Origin: Verrucomicrobiia bacterium
GTDB taxonomy: Bacteria; Verrucomicrobiota; Verrucomicrobiia; Verrucomicrobiales; Akkermansiaceae
DNA: 64,000 nt
Reading direction: 5' to 3'
Assembly: GCA_030432565.1 (NCBI GenBank)
Contig: JAUIGV010000015.1
Location: forward strand, 62,001-126,000
Positions within the stretch are counted from its first letter, which is position 1, and the number at the start of each line of letters is the position of its first letter. The notes beneath the pieces were generated by a model. It was given only the letters and a program-made list of their open reading frames with translations, was not told the DNA's origin and made no database searches. This document shows, in pieces, positions 2,421 to 20,245 of this stretch. A program made the translations under genes and the position numbers.

Positions 2421-4637
2421 TCAGAGTGCCTCAACTTTGAACTCACAGGAAATCGATTGCTTGGTCTCCGAATGAGTGAGATGCAAGCGATGGGTGCCCG
2501 GGGTGAGGGTCGCTTGTTCGCCGTTGATCTTGAGAGTGTCCGAGGTCCAGGTGACGTCCGGGAGGTTTGCTACCAACTTGAGTTGGTCCGTGGTGCCCGG
2601 AATTTCCGGATCCAGATAGTAGGTTGCTCCGGGGAGCGGAGTTAGGAACTGCAGATTGAGAGTTGCGGGTGGACGTGAGTCGGTGAGGGTGAAAGCGTGG
2701 CCTTTGACATTGTCTTCCGACTGATACCATTCGGCATAGTCGAGAGAGAGGAGAGCTCGTTGATCGGGATGGTAGTCTTGGTTTGAAACTGGCAATGGCA
2801 GTCGTTCTTTGGGGCAGAGCTCAAGTTTGAGATAGGCGGTCCCTTTCTGCGGAGGGATCGAGAAGTGATGTCCTGTGCGTTCATCGACCTGGATGCGGGT
2901 GAGGGACGCTGGCTTTGAGGGGAAAGAGGGCGCGTGGTCCTGATGTAAAGCCAGCATGGTGCGGTGAAAGATGGGCCCGGCTCCGGTGACTCCGGAGATG
3001 CCCGCCATGGGTGTGTTGTCGAAGTTGCCAACCCAAACCCCGACCGTGAAGTCTGCTGTGAATCCAAGGCACCAGTTGTCGCGAAAATCTGATGAAGTTC
3101 CTGTTTTGACGGCGCAGGGGAAGGGAAGCCGGAGAAGCGAATCGTTTCCAAAAGCTGCCGAGCGGGCCTGGTTGTCGGAGAGGATGTCGGCGATCAAGAA
3201 GCAAGCTTCACGGGTGAGCGGATAGGTGGAACTGGCTTCAGTCCCGTGGATCAGGGACGGCGGGAGGTGCCGGCCGAGTCTGGCGAGAGTGGCGTAAGCA
3301 TTGGTGAGGGAAAGGAGTGAGACCTCGGCATTGCCGATGGTGAGACCAAGGCCGTATTCGGCAGCCTCGCGTGCAAGTTTCAGATCGAGTTCGTTGAGAA
3401 GCGCGTGAAGAGGTTCGGGGCCGCCGAGTTGGTTGAGCACCCGCATCGCTGAGACGTTGAGAGAGTTCCCGAGGGCGTGGCGGATTGAAACGGGGCCGTG
3501 GTGGCGGCGGTCGTAGTTTTTGGGAGCGTCGAGTCCTTCCTCGGTTTGATAATCGGTGGGGATGTCGGCGATGATGGTGCCGGGGTAGAGACCTTGGTTT
3601 TGGAAGGCGAGCGCGTAGGTGAAAGGCTTGAGAGTGGAGCCAGCGGAGCGGAGGGCGAGAGCTCCGTTGACCTGGCCGCTGTTGCTACTCTCAAAATCCG
3701 AGGACCCGTGAAAAGCGAGGACCTCTCCGGTGGCGTTTTCAATGACGACAACCGCGCCGTGTTGCACATTTTTCTGATCGAGCTTCGAAAGTTCATCGTG
3801 GAGAATATCGTGGGTTTTTCTTTGAAGTTCGCTTTCGATGCTGAGCCGTGCGCCCTCGCTGAAGTGACTTGTCAGGTGGGGAATCGGGTTTTCTGCTTCA
3901 GGATTGGCGAGCTGCAAGGGCTCGGACTTGGCGAGTTCAATGGCAGGCGGTGGGTAATCAAATTCGGAGGCCAGACGGTCGAGGATCCAGTTGCGACGTT
4001 CGAGGGCCGCTTGTGGGTTCCGGCGCGGGTTGAGCCGGGAGGGGGCCTGGGGAAGTCCGGCAAGGAGGGCTGACTCGGCAAGGGAGAGATCGGCGAGTGG
4101 TTTCTTGAAGAAGTATCGGGCCGCTTCGGCGCAGCCCTGCCGATGTGAGCCGTAGTCGAGCCGGTTCAGGTAGGCCGTCAGGATTTGGTCTTTGGTCCAC
4201 TGTGTTTCAAGGCGACGCGCGAGCATCATTTCGGAAATCTTCTTACCCAGGGTTCGCTCTTCCCGGGGCGTGGAGATCTTAATCAATTGCTGGGTAATGG
4301 TGGAGGCTCCGGAAGTGATGCGGCTGGTACGGGTGTTTTCGTACAAAGCCCGCAAGGAGGCGAGATAATCGATTCCGGGGTGTTCGAAGAAGCGTTTGTC
4401 TTCGGCGGCGAGGGTGGCTTTGACGAGGTGATCGGGGATCTCCTCCAGTGTGGCCGGTTGATGGCGAAAGTAGTCCTCGCGCGGGAAGTGGGTCAGTTCC
4501 CTGCCGTGGCGGTCGAGGAGGATGCCGTGCGTAGCGGGTGGGTTTCCCAGTCTCTCCGGAAGCGGTCCGAGGAGGGGGATGACCGGGAGAAGTAAAAAAA
4601 GGGCGAGAAATCGCGGAGCTGACGGCGGAAGGATCAT
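2421..4637 (-). CDS. pbpC: Penicillin-binding protein 1C (GT51 + transpeptidase + BiPBP_C)
   Basis: The protein has 738 residues and an N-terminal signal anchor (about 8-25). The glycosyltransferase 51 domain (about 40-230) shows the catalytic-Glu motif AAEDKRFFEHPG and SGASTITQQL. The transpeptidase domain (about 280-560) has an intact SxxK (STLK, near 340), SLN and KTG (VKTGTSSD). A C-terminal BiPBP_C-like beta domain (about 640-738) follows, with GATYYLDPEIPG. This is a complete bifunctional class A PBP of the PBP1C type, polymerising and cross-linking peptidoglycan in the periplasm. It follows the dehydrogenase-like gene by 52 bases and an alpha-2-macroglobulin gene upstream of that. The A2M-PbpC pairing is well known in bacteria and is thought to join protease inhibition with wall repair. 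The motifs contrast with the degenerate PBP at 29101. Confidence 0.95.
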   Translation of the reverse strand: MILPPSAPRFLALFLLLPVIPLLGPLPERLGNPPATHGILLDRHGRELTHFPREDYFRHQPATLEEIPDHLVKATLAAEDKRFFEHPGIDYLASLRALYENTRTSRITSGASTITQQLIKISTPREERTLGKKISEMMLARRLETQWTKDQILTAYLNRLDYGSHRQGCAEAARYFFKKPLADLSLAESALLAGLPQAPSRLNPRRNPQAALERRNWILDRLASEFDYPPPAIELAKSEPLQLANPEAENPIPHLTSHFSEGARLSIESELQRKTHDILHDELSKLDQKNVQHGAVVVIENATGEVLAFHGSSDFESSNSGQVNGALALRSAGSTLKPFTYALAFQNQGLYPGTIIADIPTDYQTEEGLDAPKNYDRRHHGPVSIRHALGNSLNVSAMRVLNQLGGPEPLHALLNELDLKLAREAAEYGLGLTIGNAEVSLLSLTNAYATLARLGRHLPPSLIHGTEASSTYPLTREACFLIADILSDNQARSAAFGNDSLLRLPFPCAVKTGTSSDFRDNWCLGFTADFTVGVWVGNFDNTPMAGISGVTGAGPIFHRTMLALHQDHAPSFPSKPASLTRIQVDERTGHHFSIPPQKGTAYLKLELCPKERLPLPVSNQDYHPDQRALLSLDYAEWYQSEDNVKGHAFTLTDSRPPATLNLQFLTPLPGATYYLDPEIPGTTDQLKLVANLPDVTWTSDTLKINGEQATLTPGTHRLHLTHSETKQSISCEFKVEAL

Positions 4638-5968: not shown

Positions 5969-8900
5969 CTACTTGACGCTGAGGGTTTGGGTTGCGCCGA
6001 GGGCGTAGCTGGAGGGGTCGTACATTTCCTCGACCTTGGTGGAGGGGACGAAGTTTTCGCCATCGTGGGTCACACGGGCATGGTAGCTCATGGTGACATT
6101 GGAGGACCGGCGCGGGTTGTCCACAAAGAAGAGGACGCGATCGAGGCGTACTTCCTGATGCGAGATGCTCCAATGGTTTTTATCTTTGACGCGCCCCGCC
6201 TGGCTTCCAAAGTCGGAATTGACGGCCTGGAAAGACGAGGGGAGCGGGTCGTCAATGGCAAGGTAGCGCATGGATTTATCCGGAAGGGAAACCGTCAGGG
6301 TAACTTTGACGAGGTCTCCAATTTTCGGATCCTGAAGCTTCTCGGTGGAGCCATCTGATTGGACGCGCTCGTAGTTCCGGATGATCGAAAGACCGTTTTT
6401 GGAAACAGGCTGGACGGGAGCGATCTTTGGCTTCGCCGCGATGGCGCTGTAAACGTAGGTTTTATCGCTTGAGGAAGCGAGAAGTTTGAATCCGCCCTCG
6501 AGAGGAAGTTTGAGGGTGTGGGAAGGCTTGTCTTTTGGAATTACGATCTTCTTCGTGCCGTCTGAGGTTTCGACCAAGAGCTCGATGTCCTTTTGCGAGA
6601 TCTCGTGAGCCTGGGCGTAGGCGCCCATCGCGAGGAGCGACCAGGCGTTGGCCCAAGTGGTGCGCCAGTGACCGCGTGGGGAGCGTTTTGCAAGGAGTTT
6701 GGAAAGGTTGTCTTCGCAGCCTTTGGAATTCGGCTTGATGGTGGACCAGGCGAAAAGGGACATGGCATCGGCGTTGCGATAGGTCATCCAGTAGCCGCTG
6801 TTGTTCCCGGCCTCTCCGTCCATGCCGAGGAGTTCTTCGGCTCCTTCCTGCTTGGCGGTGTGCATCGCGAGTGCGAGGAAAGCGCGTGCGGATTGCGGAA
6901 TTTGATCGGCCTTTTCAAGCAGCTTGGAGTGGTAAGCGTTTTCTGCTTTGCCAAGTCGGGCGAGAACATAGAGCCCGCGGGCGTAGTTTTCGTAATCGTA
7001 GGCGGTCTTGATGCCGGAGAGTCCTCGGAGGTTTGACGAGAGGTAGCCGGCGAGGCGGTCGAGTGAGGATTGGGGAACATCGGCTCCGGCTTCCTTGCAG
7101 AGAATCAAGCCAAGACCGGCATAGGATGAGGCCCAATTGGATGAGGAGCTGTTGCCACTCCAGTAGCCAATGCCACCATCGGAAGTTTGCATGCCGAGAA
7201 GACGGTCTGCTCCGGCCTGGATTGCTTTGTCGATTTGAGTAACGGATTGCTTCTGGAAGCCAGGCGCGAGGTGGCGAAGGTTTTTGGCCGCGATCCACGG
7301 GATGGTCGACGAGGTCGTTTGCTCGGCGCAACCATAAGGATAACGAAGGAGGTAGTCGATGGCGCCACCTGCTTCGAGGAGTCGGGAGCGGGCGAATTCG
7401 ACCTCCAGGTGACCACGGCCAGCGATGAGTTCCTCGGAGAATCCCTCAAGGAGGTTGAACTTCCTGGCGGGGTCGTTAAAGGTCACGAATTGGACTTCGC
7501 GGAGGAGAGGCATCGGGTAGCGAACCTCGAAGGTGGACTCGACGGAGTCCGAGAGGTTTTGTTTGAGCGCCGGTGGGAGGTCGCGGTTGGCGAGGGCCAC
7601 GGGTTCGGCGGACCACTGCCACTTGGCGGTGCCGGTGTTGGCGAAGATGACTTCGAATTCGACGGTGGCCTGACCTTTGGCCGGGACGTCGATTTCAGTC
7701 ATGAGGGTTTTGTTGGCGGTTGTGGTGGAGTCGAGCTTGAGTTCAACCTTCCAGGTGCCGGCGTTGTCGGTGGTATTCTGGAGGAGAGCCTTCGAGCGGA
7801 TGCGATCGCCCTCATGGGCAAAGGCAGGAGGCGAGGGCTCAAGCATGAAGGGCTTGTTCACCACGGCTTCGCTGATGCCGTTTCCGAAGCGGGAGGATCC
7901 ATGGGAGGCAACGGCAATGAGGCGATAGCGGGTGAGGGTGTCGGGTGCTTTAAAGCGGGCGGAGAAGGTTCCGTCGCTGCCAGTCACAAGAGCGGGCATC
8001 CAGGCGGCGGTGGGGTTGAAGTCGGAGCGTGATTTTTCCTCTTCTTCACCGCCGCCATCGGAGGCTGCGAAGGCATCGGCTTCACCTCCTCCAATGATGA
8101 ATCCTTTGTTGCCAAACTCGCGGGCGTCGAGGGATTCCGGGATGAAGTTTGTCAGAGAAGTGCCGTTTTTCAGGCTCATCAGGCGGGGCTGATGGAAGGT
8201 GGAGAGCGGATCGGGATTGTCGTAACCCATGACGGCGAGCGTTCCTTCATCGACTGCGTAGAATGTGATTTCAGCGGCGGATACCGGCTTGCCTTTGTAG
8301 TCGGTCACGTTTCCTGAGACTTCGATGATATCGCCGGGCCGGGTCTCACTCTGAGTGGTGGCAAGGTCGATCGTGAGCCGGGATTTCGCAGGGTCGACGG
8401 TGAGTTCACAATATCCGAGGCGGAGTTGCGGCTCGGGGTCCTTGCGTTTGGAATCAGCGGATCCCTTGATGATGAGAACCGAGACGAAAGCGTTGGGCGC
8501 GTCATCTTCGTTGAGCGGAATTTCGATGACGGGATTTTCCAGAGTCAGTTGCTTGCGGAACTTACGGGCAACATCCTTGTGCTCGACCGTGATGAGGGCT
8601 TCGCCCTCGATGGGAGAGAGGACGAGGATGCGGGCAGTTTCACCGGGTTGGTATCGGCGCTTTTCAGGAACAAGCTTGATGCGCATTCCGGCTTCATAAG
8701 CCCAGGGGTATTCGTTGGTGCCATAGATCTGACGGGTGATGACAGTTTTGATCAGGCGTCCGGAGGCGTCTTTTGAAGTCAGGGTGAAGAAGTGTTTTCC
8801 GGATTCGGTGGGGGTGAAGGGAAGATCGAGTTTGCCATTTGGCAGGGTGATTTCACGGGTGGTGACCGGGACGATCGAGGCTTCGTTTTTCACGATGATG

Positions 8901-11656
8901 CGACCGTTGGGCGCCTTGGACTTGATCTGCTTGTTGACCTCGCGCTCGACGGTGAGGGTTGCTGTAACGGGCTCGGTGTGAAGCTTTCCTTTTTGGGTGA
9001 CTGCAACGACCTTGAAAGGGATCTCATTGCCGACTCTCGTGATCTGGTCCTGGCGGAGAATTCCGAGGTAGAAACCGGAGGAATGAAGGGTGGTTCCGGC
9101 ATTGGTGGAGAGGGTTTGACTGTTGGCATCCATGACCTCGGTTTGCACCGTGGCACGACGGGGGGTGGGGAACTTGAGTTCGGGGATTGCAAAATCGATT
9201 GCGAGTTTGCCGTCTTCACCGAGTTCTGTTTCACCATTTTCGGAGTGCCTGCCCTGGCGGTCGAGGTCGCCGCCGTCACCGGAGTAGCCAAAGTAGTGGT
9301 TCCAGTAGTCGGGGTCATAACCACGGTGGTTTCCGAAGAGGAAGTCACGATAGTCCGCAGGGTAGAATCCGGTGGGGTCGGTTCGGAAGAACCAACGCAC
9401 CTTGCCTTTGGCGACGGGAGTGCCCTGGAAATATTTGGCGCTTAACTTGTATGCGAGTTCCTCGGTGAGAGAGGATTTGACTTCGAAGGTGTTACGTTTG
9501 AATTCCTGAACGGAAAAGTAGTGTGAGAATGAAGCGGACTGCTTGGCGGCGCGCTTGGCCCAGTAGTCTTCAAGCTCCTCGGCGGCTTCAAGTTCGTCGG
9601 GCCAGGTGAGTTTGAAGTAGTATTTTCCGACAGTGGTATCTGGAAGAGTGTGAGTGAAGTCGAACGAGCCGGAGGTTGATAGGGTGAGATCTCTTTCAAC
9701 AATGACCCGGCGCATGGGATCCATGAGGACAAGCTTGGGGTTGATCGACATGGGCAGGCGGAGCTCGTCTTTTTTGAGCTTGCGAACGATGCCCTTGAGG
9801 TGGACGGTTTCGCCGGGACGATAGAGGCTGCGGTCGGTGAAGAGTTCGACGATGCGCTTGTCGGCAGGGGCAGATCCCCAATCGTAGTTGATGGGGAAGC
9901 GCCACATTGAGACGGTGGAGAGCGAATTATCGAAAGGAAGGATAAGAAGGTCTCCTTGATAGCTGGCCCGCAGGAGTCGATGCTCTTCATTGCGGGTAAA
10001 GGAGGCGGTGCCATCTTCATCAGTGACGGCTTTTTCGAATGGCGCGGCGTCTTCGCCGAAAAGTGCAAATTCGACTCCGGGAAGGGCCTTGCCGGTTTCG
10101 CACGAGTAGGCGTAGAGGAAGGCGGAGTCGTCGGTGAGTTTCCAGGCCAGACCAATGTCGGTGAGTTGGACGAGGGACTGGACCACCTTGTTGTTGGCGT
10201 TCTTGAGGTCGGGATGGTCGGCAGTAGCTCCGGTGACCGAGACAAAGAAAGCTCCGCCTGTTTGGTTCTTGGGGAGATACTTGCTCCAATTGAAGGTGTG
10301 GGTGTGGGTGGTGTCGATGTCGGCGTCGATCTCGATCACTTCGTCTGCGACGACCTTGCCGGTGATTAGCTCGAAGGGGATGGGGATGCGCTTTTTGATG
10401 CGCTCGGAGTTTGGTCCGTCGCCAGTGTAGTGACGGTAACCGAGGGAAGTACGGATGAGGTCTTTCGGGCTGAGGCGCTTGATTCGGAGTCGCAGGGACC
10501 GGTTGTTGATCGACTGAATCTGGTAGGTCCGCGATCCCCGGGCAAGTTGGGCTTCGTCCCGACTGGGAAGGAGGATGTTCGGAGCGAGGCGGGTGAACCT
10601 AAGGTCCTGGACAATGGTCTTTTCGAGACGAAGACGATCTTCTGAGAAGAGAGAGTTTGAAAGGGTTAAACGGTAATTATCCCGGCTACCAAAGTCACCT
10701 TGAAGGGTGACGGTGGTGTGACGATAATCGAAGTGGGCTTCAAGTTTTTCGACCGGATTGCCAAACTTGAGGTGCTTTAGGAATTCGGCCGGTTTGAGAT
10801 CCCCGGGGAGCGGCTGGTTGAAGGTGATCCGAATGGTGCGCGGTTGGTCGGGAGCGGTGACAGGAACGATGAGCTTGGTGGTAAAGGGAACGACGTTGCC
10901 AAGTGCGTAGTGATTGATCTTATCGATGGAGGCGCTGCCGGCGGCATTGGGGAGGGAGGAGAGGCGGCGCAGTGACCAGAGTTTGCCAATCGGAAGCGGG
11001 GTGACCGGTTCGACGACGAGAGCGTGCTCGATGATCTCGGTTGGCCCGGGAACAGGATTGCCGTAGCGGCGATTCTTTCCGGTGAATCTTTCCTGCCAGG
11101 ATGGTTGGTAGTAATAGCGGCTGCGGAGATCTCCCCAGGTGGCCCTTCGGGTGCGGGCAGCCACGATTTGCTCCTCTTGTTCCTCGGTCTTGGGGCTTAC
11201 GAACTGGAAGAAGGCTGCGGTGCTGGTAGGGCTGACGTTGTCGTTGAACATCAAAATGCTTTCGCCGGTGCGAACGGAGCCATTGCGAAGAGAGCGGACG
11301 ACTTGGAAGGGCTCGGATTGGGCTGCTTTGAATTTTTGAGCGGGAACCACGGTGCCATCGACTGCCTTAAGATCCCGGAAAAGGCTGAACTCGTAGTTCG
11401 TCGCCACCTTGGGGGCCTCCTGGGGCACGATGGTGGCAATGTTCTGCGCGCGCCAGATCAGTTTGGTCTTCCAGACCGGCTTAATCGTCAGGATGGAGTT
11501 TTCGATGGTCTGGCCAACCGTATCCGGAGTGACCATGGCCTTGTCGAAGATGAGCTCGATCTTGGTTTTTGGCTCGATGACCTGATCGCCAAGTGAGAGG
11601 CGTGGGGCTCCGAGAAGAGGGAGGGCGAGGGAGAGAAAGAGTAGCAGCAGTTTCAT
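5969..11656 (-). CDS. Bacterial alpha-2-macroglobulin, thioester-containing protease trap
   Basis: The protein has 1895 residues and a signal peptide (MKLLLLFLSLALPLLGAP) with no lipobox Cys, so it should be a soluble periplasmic protein, unlike lipoprotein A2Ms such as E. coli YfhM. Repeated MG-type beta domains fill the first 1100 residues. A Gly/Glu-rich, low-complexity stretch at about 1185-1215 is the likely bait region, just before the A2M core phrase AAWMPALVTGSDG. The thioester motif GCAEQ is intact near residue 1438, followed by the all-alpha thioester domain (repeats such as YENYARGLYVLARLG) and a receptor-binding-like C-terminal domain. Known members trap invading proteases covalently. 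pbpC downstream supports the defence/repair role. Confidence 0.94.
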   Translation of the reverse strand: MKLLLLFLSLALPLLGAPRLSLGDQVIEPKTKIELIFDKAMVTPDTVGQTIENSILTIKPVWKTKLIWRAQNIATIVPQEAPKVATNYEFSLFRDLKAVDGTVVPAQKFKAAQSEPFQVVRSLRNGSVRTGESILMFNDNVSPTSTAAFFQFVSPKTEEQEEQIVAARTRRATWGDLRSRYYYQPSWQERFTGKNRRYGNPVPGPTEIIEHALVVEPVTPLPIGKLWSLRRLSSLPNAAGSASIDKINHYALGNVVPFTTKLIVPVTAPDQPRTIRITFNQPLPGDLKPAEFLKHLKFGNPVEKLEAHFDYRHTTVTLQGDFGSRDNYRLTLSNSLFSEDRLRLEKTIVQDLRFTRLAPNILLPSRDEAQLARGSRTYQIQSINNRSLRLRIKRLSPKDLIRTSLGYRHYTGDGPNSERIKKRIPIPFELITGKVVADEVIEIDADIDTTHTHTFNWSKYLPKNQTGGAFFVSVTGATADHPDLKNANNKVVQSLVQLTDIGLAWKLTDDSAFLYAYSCETGKALPGVEFALFGEDAAPFEKAVTDEDGTASFTRNEEHRLLRASYQGDLLILPFDNSLSTVSMWRFPINYDWGSAPADKRIVELFTDRSLYRPGETVHLKGIVRKLKKDELRLPMSINPKLVLMDPMRRVIVERDLTLSTSGSFDFTHTLPDTTVGKYYFKLTWPDELEAAEELEDYWAKRAAKQSASFSHYFSVQEFKRNTFEVKSSLTEELAYKLSAKYFQGTPVAKGKVRWFFRTDPTGFYPADYRDFLFGNHRGYDPDYWNHYFGYSGDGGDLDRQGRHSENGETELGEDGKLAIDFAIPELKFPTPRRATVQTEVMDANSQTLSTNAGTTLHSSGFYLGILRQDQITRVGNEIPFKVVAVTQKGKLHTEPVTATLTVEREVNKQIKSKAPNGRIIVKNEASIVPVTTREITLPNGKLDLPFTPTESGKHFFTLTSKDASGRLIKTVITRQIYGTNEYPWAYEAGMRIKLVPEKRRYQPGETARILVLSPIEGEALITVEHKDVARKFRKQLTLENPVIEIPLNEDDAPNAFVSVLIIKGSADSKRKDPEPQLRLGYCELTVDPAKSRLTIDLATTQSETRPGDIIEVSGNVTDYKGKPVSAAEITFYAVDEGTLAVMGYDNPDPLSTFHQPRLMSLKNGTSLTNFIPESLDAREFGNKGFIIGGGEADAFAASDGGGEEEEKSRSDFNPTAAWMPALVTGSDGTFSARFKAPDTLTRYRLIAVASHGSSRFGNGISEAVVNKPFMLEPSPPAFAHEGDRIRSKALLQNTTDNAGTWKVELKLDSTTTANKTLMTEIDVPAKGQATVEFEVIFANTGTAKWQWSAEPVALANRDLPPALKQNLSDSVESTFEVRYPMPLLREVQFVTFNDPARKFNLLEGFSEELIAGRGHLEVEFARSRLLEAGGAIDYLLRYPYGCAEQTTSSTIPWIAAKNLRHLAPGFQKQSVTQIDKAIQAGADRLLGMQTSDGGIGYWSGNSSSSNWASSYAGLGLILCKEAGADVPQSSLDRLAGYLSSNLRGLSGIKTAYDYENYARGLYVLARLGKAENAYHSKLLEKADQIPQSARAFLALAMHTAKQEGAEELLGMDGEAGNNSGYWMTYRNADAMSLFAWSTIKPNSKGCEDNLSKLLAKRSPRGHWRTTWANAWSLLAMGAYAQAHEISQKDIELLVETSDGTKKIVIPKDKPSHTLKLPLEGGFKLLASSSDKTYVYSAIAAKPKIAPVQPVSKNGLSIIRNYERVQSDGSTEKLQDPKIGDLVKVTLTVSLPDKSMRYLAIDDPLPSSFQAVNSDFGSQAGRVKDKNHWSISHQEVRLDRVLFFVDNPRRSSNVTMSYHARVTHDGENFVPSTKVEEMYDPSSYALGATQTLSVK

Positions 11657-13896: not shown

Positions 13897-14117
13897 TTGT
13901 TTGTTGAGCAGGAAAAAGCGGACCTTGGTGATCCCTGCCCGATTGAGCAAATAAATTCCGGCAGTAATCGTGAAGTTGTTAGATTTGTCATTCAGATTTT
14001 GTGGCGTCGTGTGTGAAAAAGTTGCCCATTCAAGGGTAGGCTGGAGCTATTGGCTTCATTCTTGCAATCGGTTCTCAATAAGAGCAAAAGAGCGTGGTCC
14101 ATTTAATACTCCACTTC

Positions 14118-15134
14118 ATGAAACTCCAAAAACTACGACCTTCTTTTTTGCTCGCAGGTGTCTCGATTCTCCTGGCACCACTCTCAAATGCTGACATTGC
14201 CGAAGGGTTGACCGAATATTGGGCCCTTGATGGGGACTATACCGCTGCGATTGATCCTACGCACGAAGGGACTTTGGTCACGACCGGGACAGGCAGTGCC
14301 GCCTTCGTTGATGGAAAATTTGGCCAAGCTGTCGATCTTACCAATAGCACAGGAAACCAAGCTTATGTCGTTATTGGCGGCGATGAGAACGATATGGATT
14401 TTGCGGCTGGCGATATGACTCTCTCCATTTGGTATACTACCGAGAGCCTTTACACAAATTGGCAAACAATAGCAGGCAAGGGGGAAGGTGATGGTTGGCG
14501 TCTTGCACGGTCGAGTGCTTCTGCGACCAACGTAACTTTTTCCAGCAGGAAGCCGCATAATATTCCGGCTGCCTTGGATGATCAAACCGCGGGCTCTGAC
14601 AAATGGCACCACTTCGTTGCCTCCGTGCAAGGTGGCGTCCGAACCGATATGTATCTCGACGGCGAACTGGTTCTTTCCGATGAGCAAGGATATTTCCCTC
14701 AGAACAGAGGAAACCCGATGCAACTTGGTGGCAATCCTGATGCGGCCGGGCGGGGTTGGAATGGCAACCTCGATGACGCCGCTGTTTGGAGTCGCGCATT
14801 AACTGCTGAGGAAGTTGCTTTGATTTGGAATGGCGGGGACGGAGCCACGATCGCAAGTTTGATTGGGATTGGTCCTGCCCTTCCGTTTGCGATTACCGAT
14901 ATTGCTTACTCCCCGGAGTCCGACGAAGTTACTCTCACTTGGCCGAAATCAGGTTCCGGCACCTACGCCGTGAAGTTTTCACTCGACCTTGTTGATTGGA
15001 GTGCCGATCTCGATGACAATGTCACCAACGATCGTGATGAAAACCCGGAAGATGATTCCCAAATCACGGTTACCTTTGATCTGTCCGGAGGTTTGGAAGA
15101 TCTCGACAAGGTGTTTTTCCGGGTCGAAAAATAG
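14118..15134 (+). CDS. Secreted LamG/concanavalin-like protein (paralogue of 19418 gene)
   Basis: The protein has 338 residues. The ATG at 14118 gives a signal peptide (MKLQKLRPSFLLAGVSILLAPLSNA). A LamG-like jelly-roll domain occupies about 30-250 (EYWALDGDYTAAIDP, GKFGQAVDL, NWQTIAGKGEGDGWR, MYLDGELVLS). About 80 C-terminal residues form a beta-rich module ending in FFRVEK, a tail type common in secreted verrucomicrobial proteins. It is very similar over the LamG part to the protein at 19418, but that copy ends in a PEP-CTERM tag and this one does not. It is probably extracellular or surface carbohydrate binding; the ligand is unknown. A large hairpin follows 46 bases after the stop. Confidence 0.8.
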   Translation: MKLQKLRPSFLLAGVSILLAPLSNADIAEGLTEYWALDGDYTAAIDPTHEGTLVTTGTGSAAFVDGKFGQAVDLTNSTGNQAYVVIGGDENDMDFAAGDMTLSIWYTTESLYTNWQTIAGKGEGDGWRLARSSASATNVTFSSRKPHNIPAALDDQTAGSDKWHHFVASVQGGVRTDMYLDGELVLSDEQGYFPQNRGNPMQLGGNPDAAGRGWNGNLDDAAVWSRALTAEEVALIWNGGDGATIASLIGIGPALPFAITDIAYSPESDEVTLTWPKSGSGTYAVKFSLDLVDWSADLDDNVTNDRDENPEDDSQITVTFDLSGGLEDLDKVFFRVEK

Positions 15135-15276: not shown

Positions 15277-18200
15277 ATGCGGAGACTGATTCTGTTTCTG
15301 ACGGGTAGCTTCGTTTTGTCCGGATGTGGTGAAGATCCCTCCACGCAAGAAGATACAGATGTCGTTGATAACAAGACTGAAAATAGTCTTGTGGTTCCGG
15401 TTGTTGACGAGGTGGATCTCGGGTCCCTGGATCTAAGCGGCGATCACAAATTGATCGGTCCGCTTGCCGATGCCTATCGTCGGCTCGATCCCGGTGAAGA
15501 TGGCTGGGAGACCGAGCGATTTAGCGAAAATGCCGCTGGACAGTTTAATCTCCTCGCGAAGTCTCTCAAGAAGATTGAGGGGTTTGATTGGGGGGCGGAT
15601 GAGTTGACTGCCTCGCTGCGGGTATTGGCTACTGCAGACTTTCATTCGTGTTCACTGCGCCCGCAGGTTAGCGAGGTCTTCAATAGCGCAGGCTTAAAGG
15701 TTAATCGGCTTGTATCTTCTGATTCCCCTGGTGCTGGAGATGATTTGAATCGTGGTCAGGATGGATTTATCTCTGCCCTGAAATATCTGCTCAAGGAGGG
15801 AAATCTCCGCTCGGTTACCCATGCGAAATTCAAGGTTAGTCACGTCGACGCGACAGATGAGGAAATTTCGACCCACGTGCTCGTGCAACTGGACGGGCCG
15901 TCAGCCTCCCAGTCTGGAATCACCCAAATCAATACCAGGTGGCAGTGTACGTGGAGTCGTAGCGAGACCGATAAGCCTCTTTTGAGCTCAATTGAAGTCC
16001 TGGCATACGAGGAGGTGATTAAGGATGGGAAGACGCTGTTTTCAGATATGACGGATGCCGTTGTGGGCGATCTTGAATCTTTTCGGGAACAGCTTGCCTA
16101 TGGAGTCGATCACTGGCGACTTAGAATTCCTGCACATCTCGGCGTTGCTGTGACCGGACATCATGGTCTTGCGATCGGAGACGTGAACGGTGACGGATTG
16201 GAGGATGTTTATCTTTGTGCAGAGGGTGGGTTGCCAAACAGACTTTTAGTTCAGGAACGAAATGGGCAGTTTCGAGATGTCACCAAGGGAAGCGGGGCAG
16301 ATTGGCTGGATACTTGCGCGAGCGCGCTCATCGTAGATTTGGATAATGATGGTGATCAGGACCTGGTCGTCGGATTGGCATGGTTTGTTGTTTTGATGGA
16401 GAACGACGGAAGCGGGAGATATACGGAGAAAACGATCTGCGAATCCAAAGGGCAGATTTTGTCGATGGCGGTTGCCGACTATGATCAAGATGGGGACTTG
16501 GATATTTTCACCTGTGGATACCAGGGAGATGGTCAGGATCTCCGGCAGGGTGCCTTGGCCATGCCGATCCCTTTTCATGATGCCAACAATGGCGGAGCAA
16601 ATACTCTCTTGAGGAATCAGGGAGCTTGGAGGTTTGAGGATGAAACCGAAAGAAGTGGACTTGGGGAAAATAACCAGCGATTTAGCTTCGCTGCGGTTTG
16701 GGAGGATTACGACAATGATGGTGACTCCGACCTCTATGTCGCAAACGATTTTGGTCGCAACAATCTGTATCAAAACAACAACGGTATTTTTACCGACGTC
16801 GCCGCGAAGGCGGGGGTGGAGGACAAGGCGGCGGGCATGTCGGTTGCATGGTCCGATATCGATCATGACGGCAACATGGATCTTTATGTGAGCAACATGT
16901 ATTCTAATGCGGGAAACCGGATTACTTATCAGAATCAATTTGACGTTGGGGAGAATGAGGCGTTCCAGAGATTTGCACGGGGTAATACGATGTTTCAGAA
17001 TCTCGGAGGAGGAAAGTTTGCTGATATCAGCGAACCGGCTGGCGTGACCATGGCTCGGTGGGCCTGGGGATCGGTATTTGCGGATTTTAACAACGATTCG
17101 TTCGATGACATTATCGTGGCGAACGGCTTTATCACTTCGACTGATACGGGGGACTTGTGAAGCGTCTATTGGCGACAGGTCGTGTCGCAGTCTCCACTGA
17201 CCGAGACCAAAGCTGGTCTCGATGGATACAAGCAGGGTTGGAAGGCCCTGAATCGGCTCCTTCACGAAGATCGCAGCTTTAGCGGGAATGAGCGAAATAC
17301 GGCCTTCCTCAATCTTGGCAGGAAGCGTTTTGCCGACTTGTCCGCGGCGAGTGGTTTTGGCTTCTTCGATGATGCGCGTGCGGTGGCGACCTTCGATTGG
17401 GACTTTGACGGCGATTTGGATTTTTGGATTGCCAACCGGACAGCTCCACGGGTCCGCTTTCTAAAAAATAATAACGTCGGGGGAAATCAATACCTCGCTC
17501 TGCGCTTGGTCGGGAATGGCAAGACGACAAATATCGACGGGATTGGAGCGCGGGTGGAAGTCGTTGTCAGGGAGAATGCAAACGGACCTGCAAAAAAGCT
17601 GATCAAGACACTCTACGCGGGAAGTGGCTTCTTGTCGCAGTCTTCGAAGTGGCTTCATTTTGGCTTGGGCGCAGCGGATGAGATCGAATCTTTGGTGATC
17701 CATTGGCCCGGTGGCAACCGCGAAGTCATCCGCGGGGTGGAGGTGGATCAACATTATCTGGTGACTCAAGGAGCGGGGAAATTGACAAAATTTCGGACGC
17801 CTGACATCGAGCGAATTGAGTCGGACCTTGTTGTTGAATTGCCATCATCCGGTGACTCGGCGCGGATCGTTCTGCCCGCTCGTCTCCTGCTTCCGGAGCT
17901 GGTCTACAAGAAATGGGATGGGGAACCGGTCTCTATTGCCGGGGCGCAATCATCTCCGGTGCTTTTAAATATTTGGGCCAGCTGGTGTCAGCCGTGCTGG
18001 AGCGAGTTTGCCGAATGGACCAAACAACAAGAGACCATCAAGGCGTCGGGATTGCGGGTGATTGGAGTAAACGTGGATGAGGGTGAGTCTGGATCCGGGG
18101 AGAAGGATCTTCAAACACGCTTGTCTAAAATGGGCTTCCCATTTGAAACAGGGAAAGGTGATCGGGTTTTGCTGGATACCCTCGATGCCTTCCAACGTGC

Positions 18201-19236
18201 GATGCTTGATCGTTGGCGGCCGCTTCCGGTGCCAACCAGCATTCTTTTGGATCAGCTGGGGAGGGTCACGACGATTTACAGGGGGCCAGTCTCGGTTGAG
18301 CAACTGTTGGCAGATGTTCAATTGTTGGAGGCGTCGCCCGAGGTGCTGCGTGAGGCCGCAGTGCCCTTCGAGGGGAAGTGGTTTGATGGCACGTCGGGGG
18401 TCAATCCCACTTCGATGTCATCGCGTTTGATCGACATTTCCATGGTTGGTTCCGCAGCTCGATACTTGATCCGCTATGCTGAGCAATTTGCTGTTGCCGA
18501 AATGTCGGATGCGGATCGAATGCGAGTGGGGGATGCTTATTTCACGGCAGCCGTTTTGCTAAAGGAAAACAAGGCGTATACCCGTGCCGCTGAGATTCTT
18601 CAAAAAGGAGTCGAGGCAAGTCCCGGAGATTTGCGAATTCGTTCACTGCTTGCTGAGGTGCTGGGTGGCTTGGGTCAATTGGCTGGAGCTGAGGAGCATT
18701 ACGGGGTTGTGGTTAAAGCGTTACCGGATGATTTTTCGACGCGCCGCAAATTGGCTCTCGTTCTTCTGGCGCAAAAGAAATATGCAGCCGCCCTTCCTCT
18801 ACTCGAGGCAGTCACCAAAGCTCAGCCTGGAAATGCCTTGGCTCATGTCGATACCGCGTCAGTTTGGCTCGGTTTAAATCAGGAAGGAAAGGCTGTTGAT
18901 TCCTACCGGGCGGCTCTAAAGACCGCTCCAGACCTGCCCAAGGCCCTGAATAATCTCGCTTGGATTTTGGCGACCCACCCCGATCCAAAAATCAGAAATG
19001 GGATTGAGGCAATTACCTATGCCGAGCGTCTCTGTGAGTTCAGTAAATACAAGTCACCGGTTGGTTTGGACACTCTGGCGACGGCCTATGCTGAAGCCGG
19101 GCGTTTCGAAGATGCCGTCGTGACCGCTCAAAAGGCCATCGGGCTTGTCGGGCCATCGGCAAATCCCACAAAAGTTGGTGAGATGAAGGGGCGCCTCGAG
19201 CTCTACAAGCAGGGCAAGCCCTACCGGGATAAGTAG
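15277..19236 (+). CDS. Exported FG-GAP/ASPIC-thioredoxin-TPR protein, candidate selenoprotein (Sec628 at in-frame TGA)
   Basis: I read one 1319-residue product across the TGA at 17158-17160. Both halves are in the same frame with no other stop, and the TGA falls inside one domain architecture. Order: lipoprotein signal with lipobox LSGC (Cys17); an N-terminal region (20-285); FG-GAP/VCBS repeats (about 288-700; DVNGDGLEDVYL, DYDNDGDSDLYV, DFNNDSFDDIIV); ASPIC/UnbV (about 745-825; GIGARVEV, HFGLG, VIHWPGG); a TlpA-like thioredoxin fold with WASWCQPCW near 902; TPR repeats (about 1050-1300). The TGA context is GDL-U-SVYWRQVVSQSP. A SECIS-like hairpin follows at 17172-17188. The alternative GTG at 17182 lies inside that hairpin and would cut the FG-GAP/ASPIC unit in two. 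Start ATG 15277 is preferred to the upstream TTG at 15271. Other explanations are a nonsense mutation or a base-call error. Function is unknown; exported redox/scaffold roles are plausible. Confidence 0.82.
17158..17191 (+). promoter_or_regulatory. Recoded UGA with bacterial SECIS-like hairpin
   Basis: TGA at 17158-17160 is followed after 17 bases by loop GGTCG (17178-17182), closed by the perfect 6-bp stem GCGACA/TGTCGC (17172-17177, 17183-17188). Pairing can extend below a bulged G17171. If the A-U closing pair is left open, the apex is C-AGGUCGU-G, very close to the C-AGGUCU-G apex of E. coli fdhF. The GGUC begins one base nearer the UGA than in fdhF. Bacterial SECIS elements are recognised by SelB through a loop with an early G at about 16-37 bases from the UGA, and this element fits. 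Confidence 0.82.
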
Positions 19237-19417: not shown

Positions 19418-20245
19418 ATGAAAAATACTCACGCAACCAAGAATCCCAAAGCCTCCGGTATGGCAGTCGCCGCTCTGGCCATTCTGGCCTTTGCCGCTCC
19501 AACAGATGCAGCAATCGTTGACGGACTCGTCGAATATTGGGAACTTGACGGTGACTACAACGCGGCTGTGGATCCCTCCCGCGCTGGGACATTAGTGACA
19601 ACCGGCAGCGGCAGCGGCACTTTTGTTTCAGGAAAATTTGGTCAGGCGATTGATCTTGAAAACAGCGCTAATAACCAAGCTTACGTGTCGATTGGCGGTG
19701 ACGAAAATACGATGGATTTCACGGGAGGTAATATGTCAATTTCGATGTGGTATACGACCGAGTCACTCTACACAAACTGGCAGACTCTTGCTGGAAAGGG
19801 TGAAGGCGACGGGTGGCGAATAGCTCGCGCAAGCTCTTCCACGACCGGCCTAACTTTTTCAGGAAGAAAGCCGCATAATTTTGACGCTGAACTTGATGAG
19901 CCTGGTTGGCACCACATTGTTGCAACCGTCGAAGGGGGTGTGAGAACCGACATGTATGTCGATGGTGCCTTGGTTGCTTCCGATACTTCTGGCTACAACC
20001 TTCAGAACCGTAACAATCCTATGCAAATCGGTGGTAACCCTGATGCCGGTGGTCGAGGCTGGGACGGGAATATTGATGATGTTGCCGTTTGGGACCGCGT
20101 TCTTACTCCAGCTGAAATAAGTTCAATCTACAATGGGGGAGCCGGGGCCAGCATCGCAAGTCTAACGACTGTTCCCGAGCCAAGTTCGCTCGCCTTGTTG
20201 GGACTTGGTGGTCTTGCTTTGGCATTCCGCAAGCGTCGCCGATAG
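19418..20245 (+). CDS. LamG protein with PEP-CTERM sorting tag
   Basis: The protein has 275 residues. The N-terminal stretch contains a hydrophobic signal (AVAALAILAFAAPTDA). One LamG-like domain follows (about 33-245; EYWELDGDYNAAVDP, GKFGQAIDL, NWQTLAGKGEGDGWR). The C-terminus is a classical PEP-CTERM signal: VPEPSSLALLGLGGLALAF plus a RKRRR basic end, which targets proteins for exosortase-type processing and delivery to the extracellular matrix. It is highly similar to the protein at 14118 but with a different tail. It sits just downstream of the selenoprotein gene after a 181-base gap holding imperfect inverted repeats but no obvious terminator, and is followed by a strong terminator. Confidence 0.88.
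   Translation: MKNTHATKNPKASGMAVAALAILAFAAPTDAAIVDGLVEYWELDGDYNAAVDPSRAGTLVTTGSGSGTFVSGKFGQAIDLENSANNQAYVSIGGDENTMDFTGGNMSISMWYTTESLYTNWQTLAGKGEGDGWRIARASSSTTGLTFSGRKPHNFDAELDEPGWHHIVATVEGGVRTDMYVDGALVASDTSGYNLQNRNNPMQIGGNPDAGGRGWDGNIDDVAVWDRVLTPAEISSIYNGGAGASIASLTTVPEPSSLALLGLGGLALAFRKRRR

Follow-up and report, generated by a model that had tools for sequence, protein, structure and literature searches.

An uncatalogued, multi-copy family of probable selenoproteins with a CRTAC1-like propeller in a marine verrucomicrobial genome

The window, which is the whole stretch of 64,000 nucleotides that was analysed, carries on its forward strand a frame of 1319 codons that starts at ATG 15277 and ends at 19236, a coordinate that includes the stop codon. 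Translation confirmed the starting observation of the original prediction: the frame is broken once, by the TGA at 17158-17160, and both halves are in phase. The TGA corresponds to residue 628, in the context ...TDTGDL-U-SVYWRQVV.... The following features were assigned to the locus.

15277-19236, + strand: predicted selenoprotein gene of 1319 sense codons and a stop, with Sec as residue 628 (single in-frame TGA; TGA-bearing homologues)
15277-15327, + strand: lipoprotein-type signal with lipobox LSGC (residues 14-17), sequence MRRLILFLTGSFVLSGC (motif only)
16129-17796, + strand: FG-GAP beta-propeller and ASPIC/UnbV, CRTAC1-like, residues ~285-840, holding the Sec (Pfam, AlphaFold2, Foldseek)
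17158-17160, + strand: UGA codon very likely read as selenocysteine, residue 628 (U/Cys in homologues, SECIS, Sec machinery)
17172-17188, + strand: bacterial SECIS hairpin, in which 17172-17177 pairs with 17183-17188 around the apical loop 17178-17182 (GGUCG) (minimum free energy, covariation, frozen synonymous sites)
17893-18312, + strand: ResA/TlpA-type thioredoxin, residues ~873-1012, with CQPC at 904-907 (Pfam, PDB matches)
18505-19158, + strand: TPR repeats, residues ~1077-1294 (Pfam and phmmer)

Pfam assigned FG-GAP (E 6.6e-39), ASPIC/UnbV (1e-18), AhpC-TSA/Redoxin and TPR domains to one chain and placed the TGA within the FG-GAP/ASPIC unit, as had been proposed. The predicted WCQPCW thioredoxin site downstream of the Sec was also found, with its cysteines at Cys904 and Cys907. 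A structure of residues 45-1035 was modelled with AlphaFold2 from 58 homologues, with Cys in place of Sec, and reached a pLDDT of 92.2 and a pTM of 0.92. In the model, Sec628 (model residue 584) lies at the N-terminus of a helix (583-594) inserted between propeller blades. The top Foldseek match was murine CRTAC1 (9etn; E 1.6e-27, TM 0.74 to the target), which shares the fold of an FG-GAP propeller followed by an ASPIC domain; subsequent matches were mainly ResA/TlpA thioredoxins, for the C-terminal domain. The window protein differs from murine CRTAC1 in its fused thioredoxin and TPR domains and in the region of the Sec helix, where the sequence profile (positions 505-631) aligned to no part of CRTAC1. 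Likewise, it shares the thioredoxin fold with CQPC with the ResA/TlpA oxidoreductases (PDB 1st9, 1jfu), but its Sec is outside that domain, 276 residues upstream in the propeller.

An N-terminal lipobox had been predicted, and LSGC is present at residues 14-17, with VGC or SAC at the lipobox position of close orthologues. The window protein is thus probably exported as a lipoprotein, judging from the motif in it and its closest orthologues. Since a simple motif scan detected a lipobox in just 21 of 87 homologues, export of the whole family is likely at most.

We searched 38 relatives for homologues. Among the matches listed, more than 100 homologous stretches contained one internal TGA, with identity down to about 31% and several such stretches per genome. 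Homologues from other genomes at 38-45% identity and lower had exactly one internal TGA, at the same place. Because independent homologues in other genomes share the site, the TGA was ruled out as a product of chance or of a base error. The best-matching named records were MAGs of Akkermansiaceae/Verrucomicrobiales, and farther homologues were found in MAGs of Lentisphaeria (Lentisphaerota), Planctomycetota and Thermoanaerobaculia (Acidobacteriota). Most of the more than 90 distinct TGA homologues belonged to the same genus, and the rest to other Verrucomicrobiota, Lentisphaerota, Planctomycetota and Acidobacteriota. The TAG that looked like a second stop in some homologues was the natural stop at their C-terminus.

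The original prediction had proposed residue 628 as the column to align, and the column contained Sec or, in one clade, Cys. The profile alignment showed TGA in 118 rows (~97 distinct) and Cys in 5 rows, all of one related clade and matching the motif DYC[ST]xxW, and none of its rows had Trp or Arg there. One relative of the Cys clade (L209/L147 in genome G257) had Asp at the Sec/Cys site, in NYDEIFWRHD. Distant paralogues without the motif had different residues in this column, where their alignment is uncertain. In an unrooted tree of the propeller core, built with the Sec-site columns omitted and giving no direction for the Sec/Cys change, the Cys, short Sec and long Sec forms were each separated by one branch. 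At least three Sec subtypes were distinguished by their motifs: DLUSxxWRQVV (long), DLUSCFW (short) and DGUTCLW. The last is represented by two divergent loci (L128 and L129) with DGUTCLWRSVVS in place of DLUS, on a long branch of the tree. TTG preceded the UGA (at 17155-17157) in 55 of 67 homologues, and AGY nearly always followed it (at 17161-17163), which suggests selection on the codons that flank the Sec codon.

The genome, from a marine verrucomicrobial bacterium (5.9 Mb, 82 contigs, 97% complete), encodes selA, selB, selC and selD, the four genes whose search had been proposed along with the prediction. A tRNA-Sec scored above the Rfam cut-off, with the remaining tRNA matches of that search below it, and ARAGORN also called this tRNA-Sec, with anticodon TCA. 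Profile searches of the genome gave matches above cut-off for SelB (315.6 bits) and SelA (489.1 bits). The SelD gene (L083 1501-2430) has an in-frame TGA of its own, in CGG-U-ASKLG, indicating that SelD is itself a selenoprotein. A hairpin-like stretch with AGUUU was seen in this gene, farther from its UGA than the hairpin of the FG-GAP family.

SelB was above cut-off in 26 of the 38 relatives. Among the matches listed, 24 relatives had TGA copies, and SelB was above cut-off in 21 of them; the other three are only 80, 88 and 65% complete. Nine relatives that lack SelB and are at least 93% complete had no TGA copy among the matches listed, and loci from four of these nine showed no Sec at the residue-628 site in the profile alignment.

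The hairpin starts 11 nt past the UGA, with its loop 17 nt from the UGA. It has a 5-nt loop, a 6-bp stem, GG at the start of the loop and a minimum free energy of -9.3 kcal/mol. In E. coli fdhF, the SECIS is a hairpin 3' of the UGA with GGUC in its apical loop. The window hairpin likewise lies directly 3' of the UGA with GGUC in the apical loop, and differs in that the loop is 1 nt nearer to the UGA, the long type has a 5-nt loop and no bulged U was seen. The window hairpin satisfies all constraints published for bacterial SECIS elements, which are a loop of 3-9 nt, a stem of 4-16 bp, G in loop positions 1-2, a spacing of 16-37 nt and a minimum free energy of at most -7.5 (PMC13188914). An Rfam scan of the UGA region gave no match; neither did the eukaryotic-type SECIS model RF00031, which is uninformative, as its controls gave none either.

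When compared with its base composition, the window hairpin is not unusually stable as a single sequence (z -0.34 to -1.56), and the case for a SECIS therefore rests on comparative data. In 69 distinct 36-nt sequences counted from the UGA, nt 22-23 were G-U in 69/69, and the loop was GGUC in 63/69. In the stem, nt 15-20 pair with nt 26-31 around GGUCG in the long type, and with nt 25-30 around GGUC in the short type; pairing was found in 96.2% of cells in the long type (48 sequences) and 92.5% in the short type. The covariation score was 0.285 in each subfamily, against 0.103 and 0.158 after shuffling, with 0/500 shuffles reaching 0.285 and slid-window controls at 0.10 or less. For example, nt 18, the third base of an Arg codon, covaries with nt 28, the first base of a Ser/Ala/Thr/Pro codon, through the pairs A-U, G-U, C-G, G-C, U-A and U-G. 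Synonymous third bases of codons +6, +7 and +8 agreed in 94, 88 and 96% of same-amino-acid pairs, compared with about 26-50% at most positions outside the hairpin.

The Sec machinery, the Sec/Cys homologues and the covarying bacterial SECIS support the predicted Sec628, and those of the originally proposed checks that were run all favoured selenocysteine. On computational grounds, namely the frame, the machinery, the SECIS and the Sec/Cys exchange, together with the fold and the expansion of the family, we consider it near-certain that TGA 17158 is decoded as selenocysteine, and actual insertion in cells is inferred from this. SelB with Sec-tRNA(UCA) would bind the GGUCG-loop hairpin during translation of the mRNA and insert Sec628, and translation would then continue into the remaining part of the propeller, the ASPIC domain, the thioredoxin and the TPRs.

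For the role of the residue, we lean towards selenol-redox chemistry, in which Sec628 would provide the selenol for catalysis at an oxidoreductase site; this reading is drawn from where the Sec lies in its helix, from the CxxC domain in the same chain and from the Sec/Cys exchange. Within the long type, neither Cys904 nor Cys907 of the thioredoxin site varies, and we infer electron transfer there from the fused ResA/TlpA-type domain to Sec628, which would be reduced by it within the same chain. In the short type, which has the Sec and matched no thioredoxin domain, the Sec would be recharged by a separate thioredoxin. Met521, Met541, Ser543, Trp595, Asp626, Trp632 and Glu672 are the same in all Sec and Cys forms, and Arg548 in almost all of them. 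The homologue alignment contained no second conserved Cys in the propeller to pair with Sec628; Cys314 and Cys413 are 85-89% conserved and largely limited to the long type.

The absence of a conserved partner Cys and the two invariant Met make the main rival a reading in which Sec628 would bind a metal or cofactor in the propeller instead of acting as a thiol-redox catalyst. Sec serves as a ligand in formate dehydrogenase and NiFeSe hydrogenase. Such a ligand would fit the invariance of Met521, Met541, Trp595, Asp626, Trp632 and Glu672 alongside Sec/Cys, as well as the relatives with Cys, and one with Asp, at the site. However, chains of the long type carry the invariant thioredoxin CxxC, the Sec is at a helix N-terminus, as is typical for redox-active chalcogens, and no known metal-site family was matched in Pfam or the PDB. 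We regard a ligand role as unlikely, though a serious contender.

Readings without selenocysteine fared far worse. If the TGA were a true stop, two half-proteins would be made, the second from GTG 17182, where a mechanically called ORF does begin. That start would fall within the SECIS hairpin, the break would divide a single propeller, the Cys homologues continue straight through the site and about 97 distinct homologues keep the TGA, so that half-proteins are very improbable. Still less probable is that the genome reads TGA as a different amino acid such as Trp, for which no evidence was found: the tRNA with the TCA anticodon is called tRNA-Sec, Trp occurs at the site in none of the homologues, TGG flanking it serves as the normal Trp codon and TGA occurs once per gene. 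A sequencing error or pseudogene, for which the fragmented assembly of 82 contigs might speak, is already refuted by dozens of genomes that were assembled independently and show the same feature, and by the 8 paralogues within this genome, and its probability is negligible.

The copies were counted with a DNA pattern of the site, which gave 8 matches in the genome and 0 when reversed. A long-type covariance model gave 6 genome matches at E < 2e-6, and the other two of the 8 copies (C46 and C78) were of the short type. The next covariance match had an E of only 0.27, and matches from there up were too weak to be accepted as additional selenoproteins. A stricter site pattern matched 2 of 388 genomes drawn from across the phylum, giving 6 matches in this genome, 3 in a second one and 0 in controls, which indicates a patchy distribution. 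The original prediction therefore undersold its candidate, which is one of eight paralogues in a family that extends across several phyla.

Like the catalogued prokaryotic selenoproteins, the window protein would depend on UGA decoding by SelB, tRNA-Sec and a bacterial SECIS, and some catalogued families are also fused to thioredoxin, such as Trx7/PDZ and the UGC-containing TlpA (PMC13188914). Table 1 of that 2026 review contains 119 families of prokaryotic selenoproteins, and neither an FG-GAP/ASPIC/CRTAC1 propeller nor a DLUSxxWR motif is among them; Verrucomicrobia and Planctomycetes are not mentioned in it. No NCBIfam model was above cut-off on the proteins tested, and no reported model spans the Sec site. 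Subscription papers and preprints aside, our literature search for selenoprotein or selenocysteine together with ASPIC, UnbV, FG-GAP or CRTAC1 found no report. The statement that this architecture was not known as a described selenoprotein thus held against the catalogue, NCBIfam and the papers searched. Selenoproteins have been reported in two planctomycete genomes (PMC4807772), and the supplementary selenoprotein list of that article could contain a member of the family.

The eight copies in the genome almost certainly represent a previously uncatalogued selenoprotein family. Its Sec is located in an insertion of the propeller, not in the usual thioredoxin-type site, and in lineages outside the 2026 review. 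A broader proposal, to which we give somewhat better than even chances, is a heavily duplicated superfamily of CRTAC1-propeller extracytoplasmic selenoenzymes with at least three Sec subtypes, which would carry out a new selenium-dependent surface reaction in marine Verrucomicrobiota and related phyla. Eight copies in this one genome and dozens across the genus suggest a strong dependence on selenium in marine bacteria, and standard annotation, in which TGA is a stop, would split each of these genes. The invariant Sec/Cys position points to a candidate active site, which makes the function of ASPIC/UnbV-FG-GAP proteins, a long-standing question, open to testing.

Genes neighbouring the paralogues encoded DUF1501, PSCyt1/DUF1549/DUF1553, TSP3, flavodoxin/FAD reductase, LamG and sulfatase proteins, and these neighbourhoods shared no operon that would reveal the substrate. 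In the window, the selenoprotein gene is flanked on the same strand by two paralogous LamG (Laminin_G_3) genes at 14094-15134 and 19418-20245, the second of which encodes a protein with a PEP-CTERM anchor. A gene for a PBP1C-like transglycosylase/transpeptidase was also observed near a bacterial alpha-2-macroglobulin gene (2421-4637 and 5969-11656).
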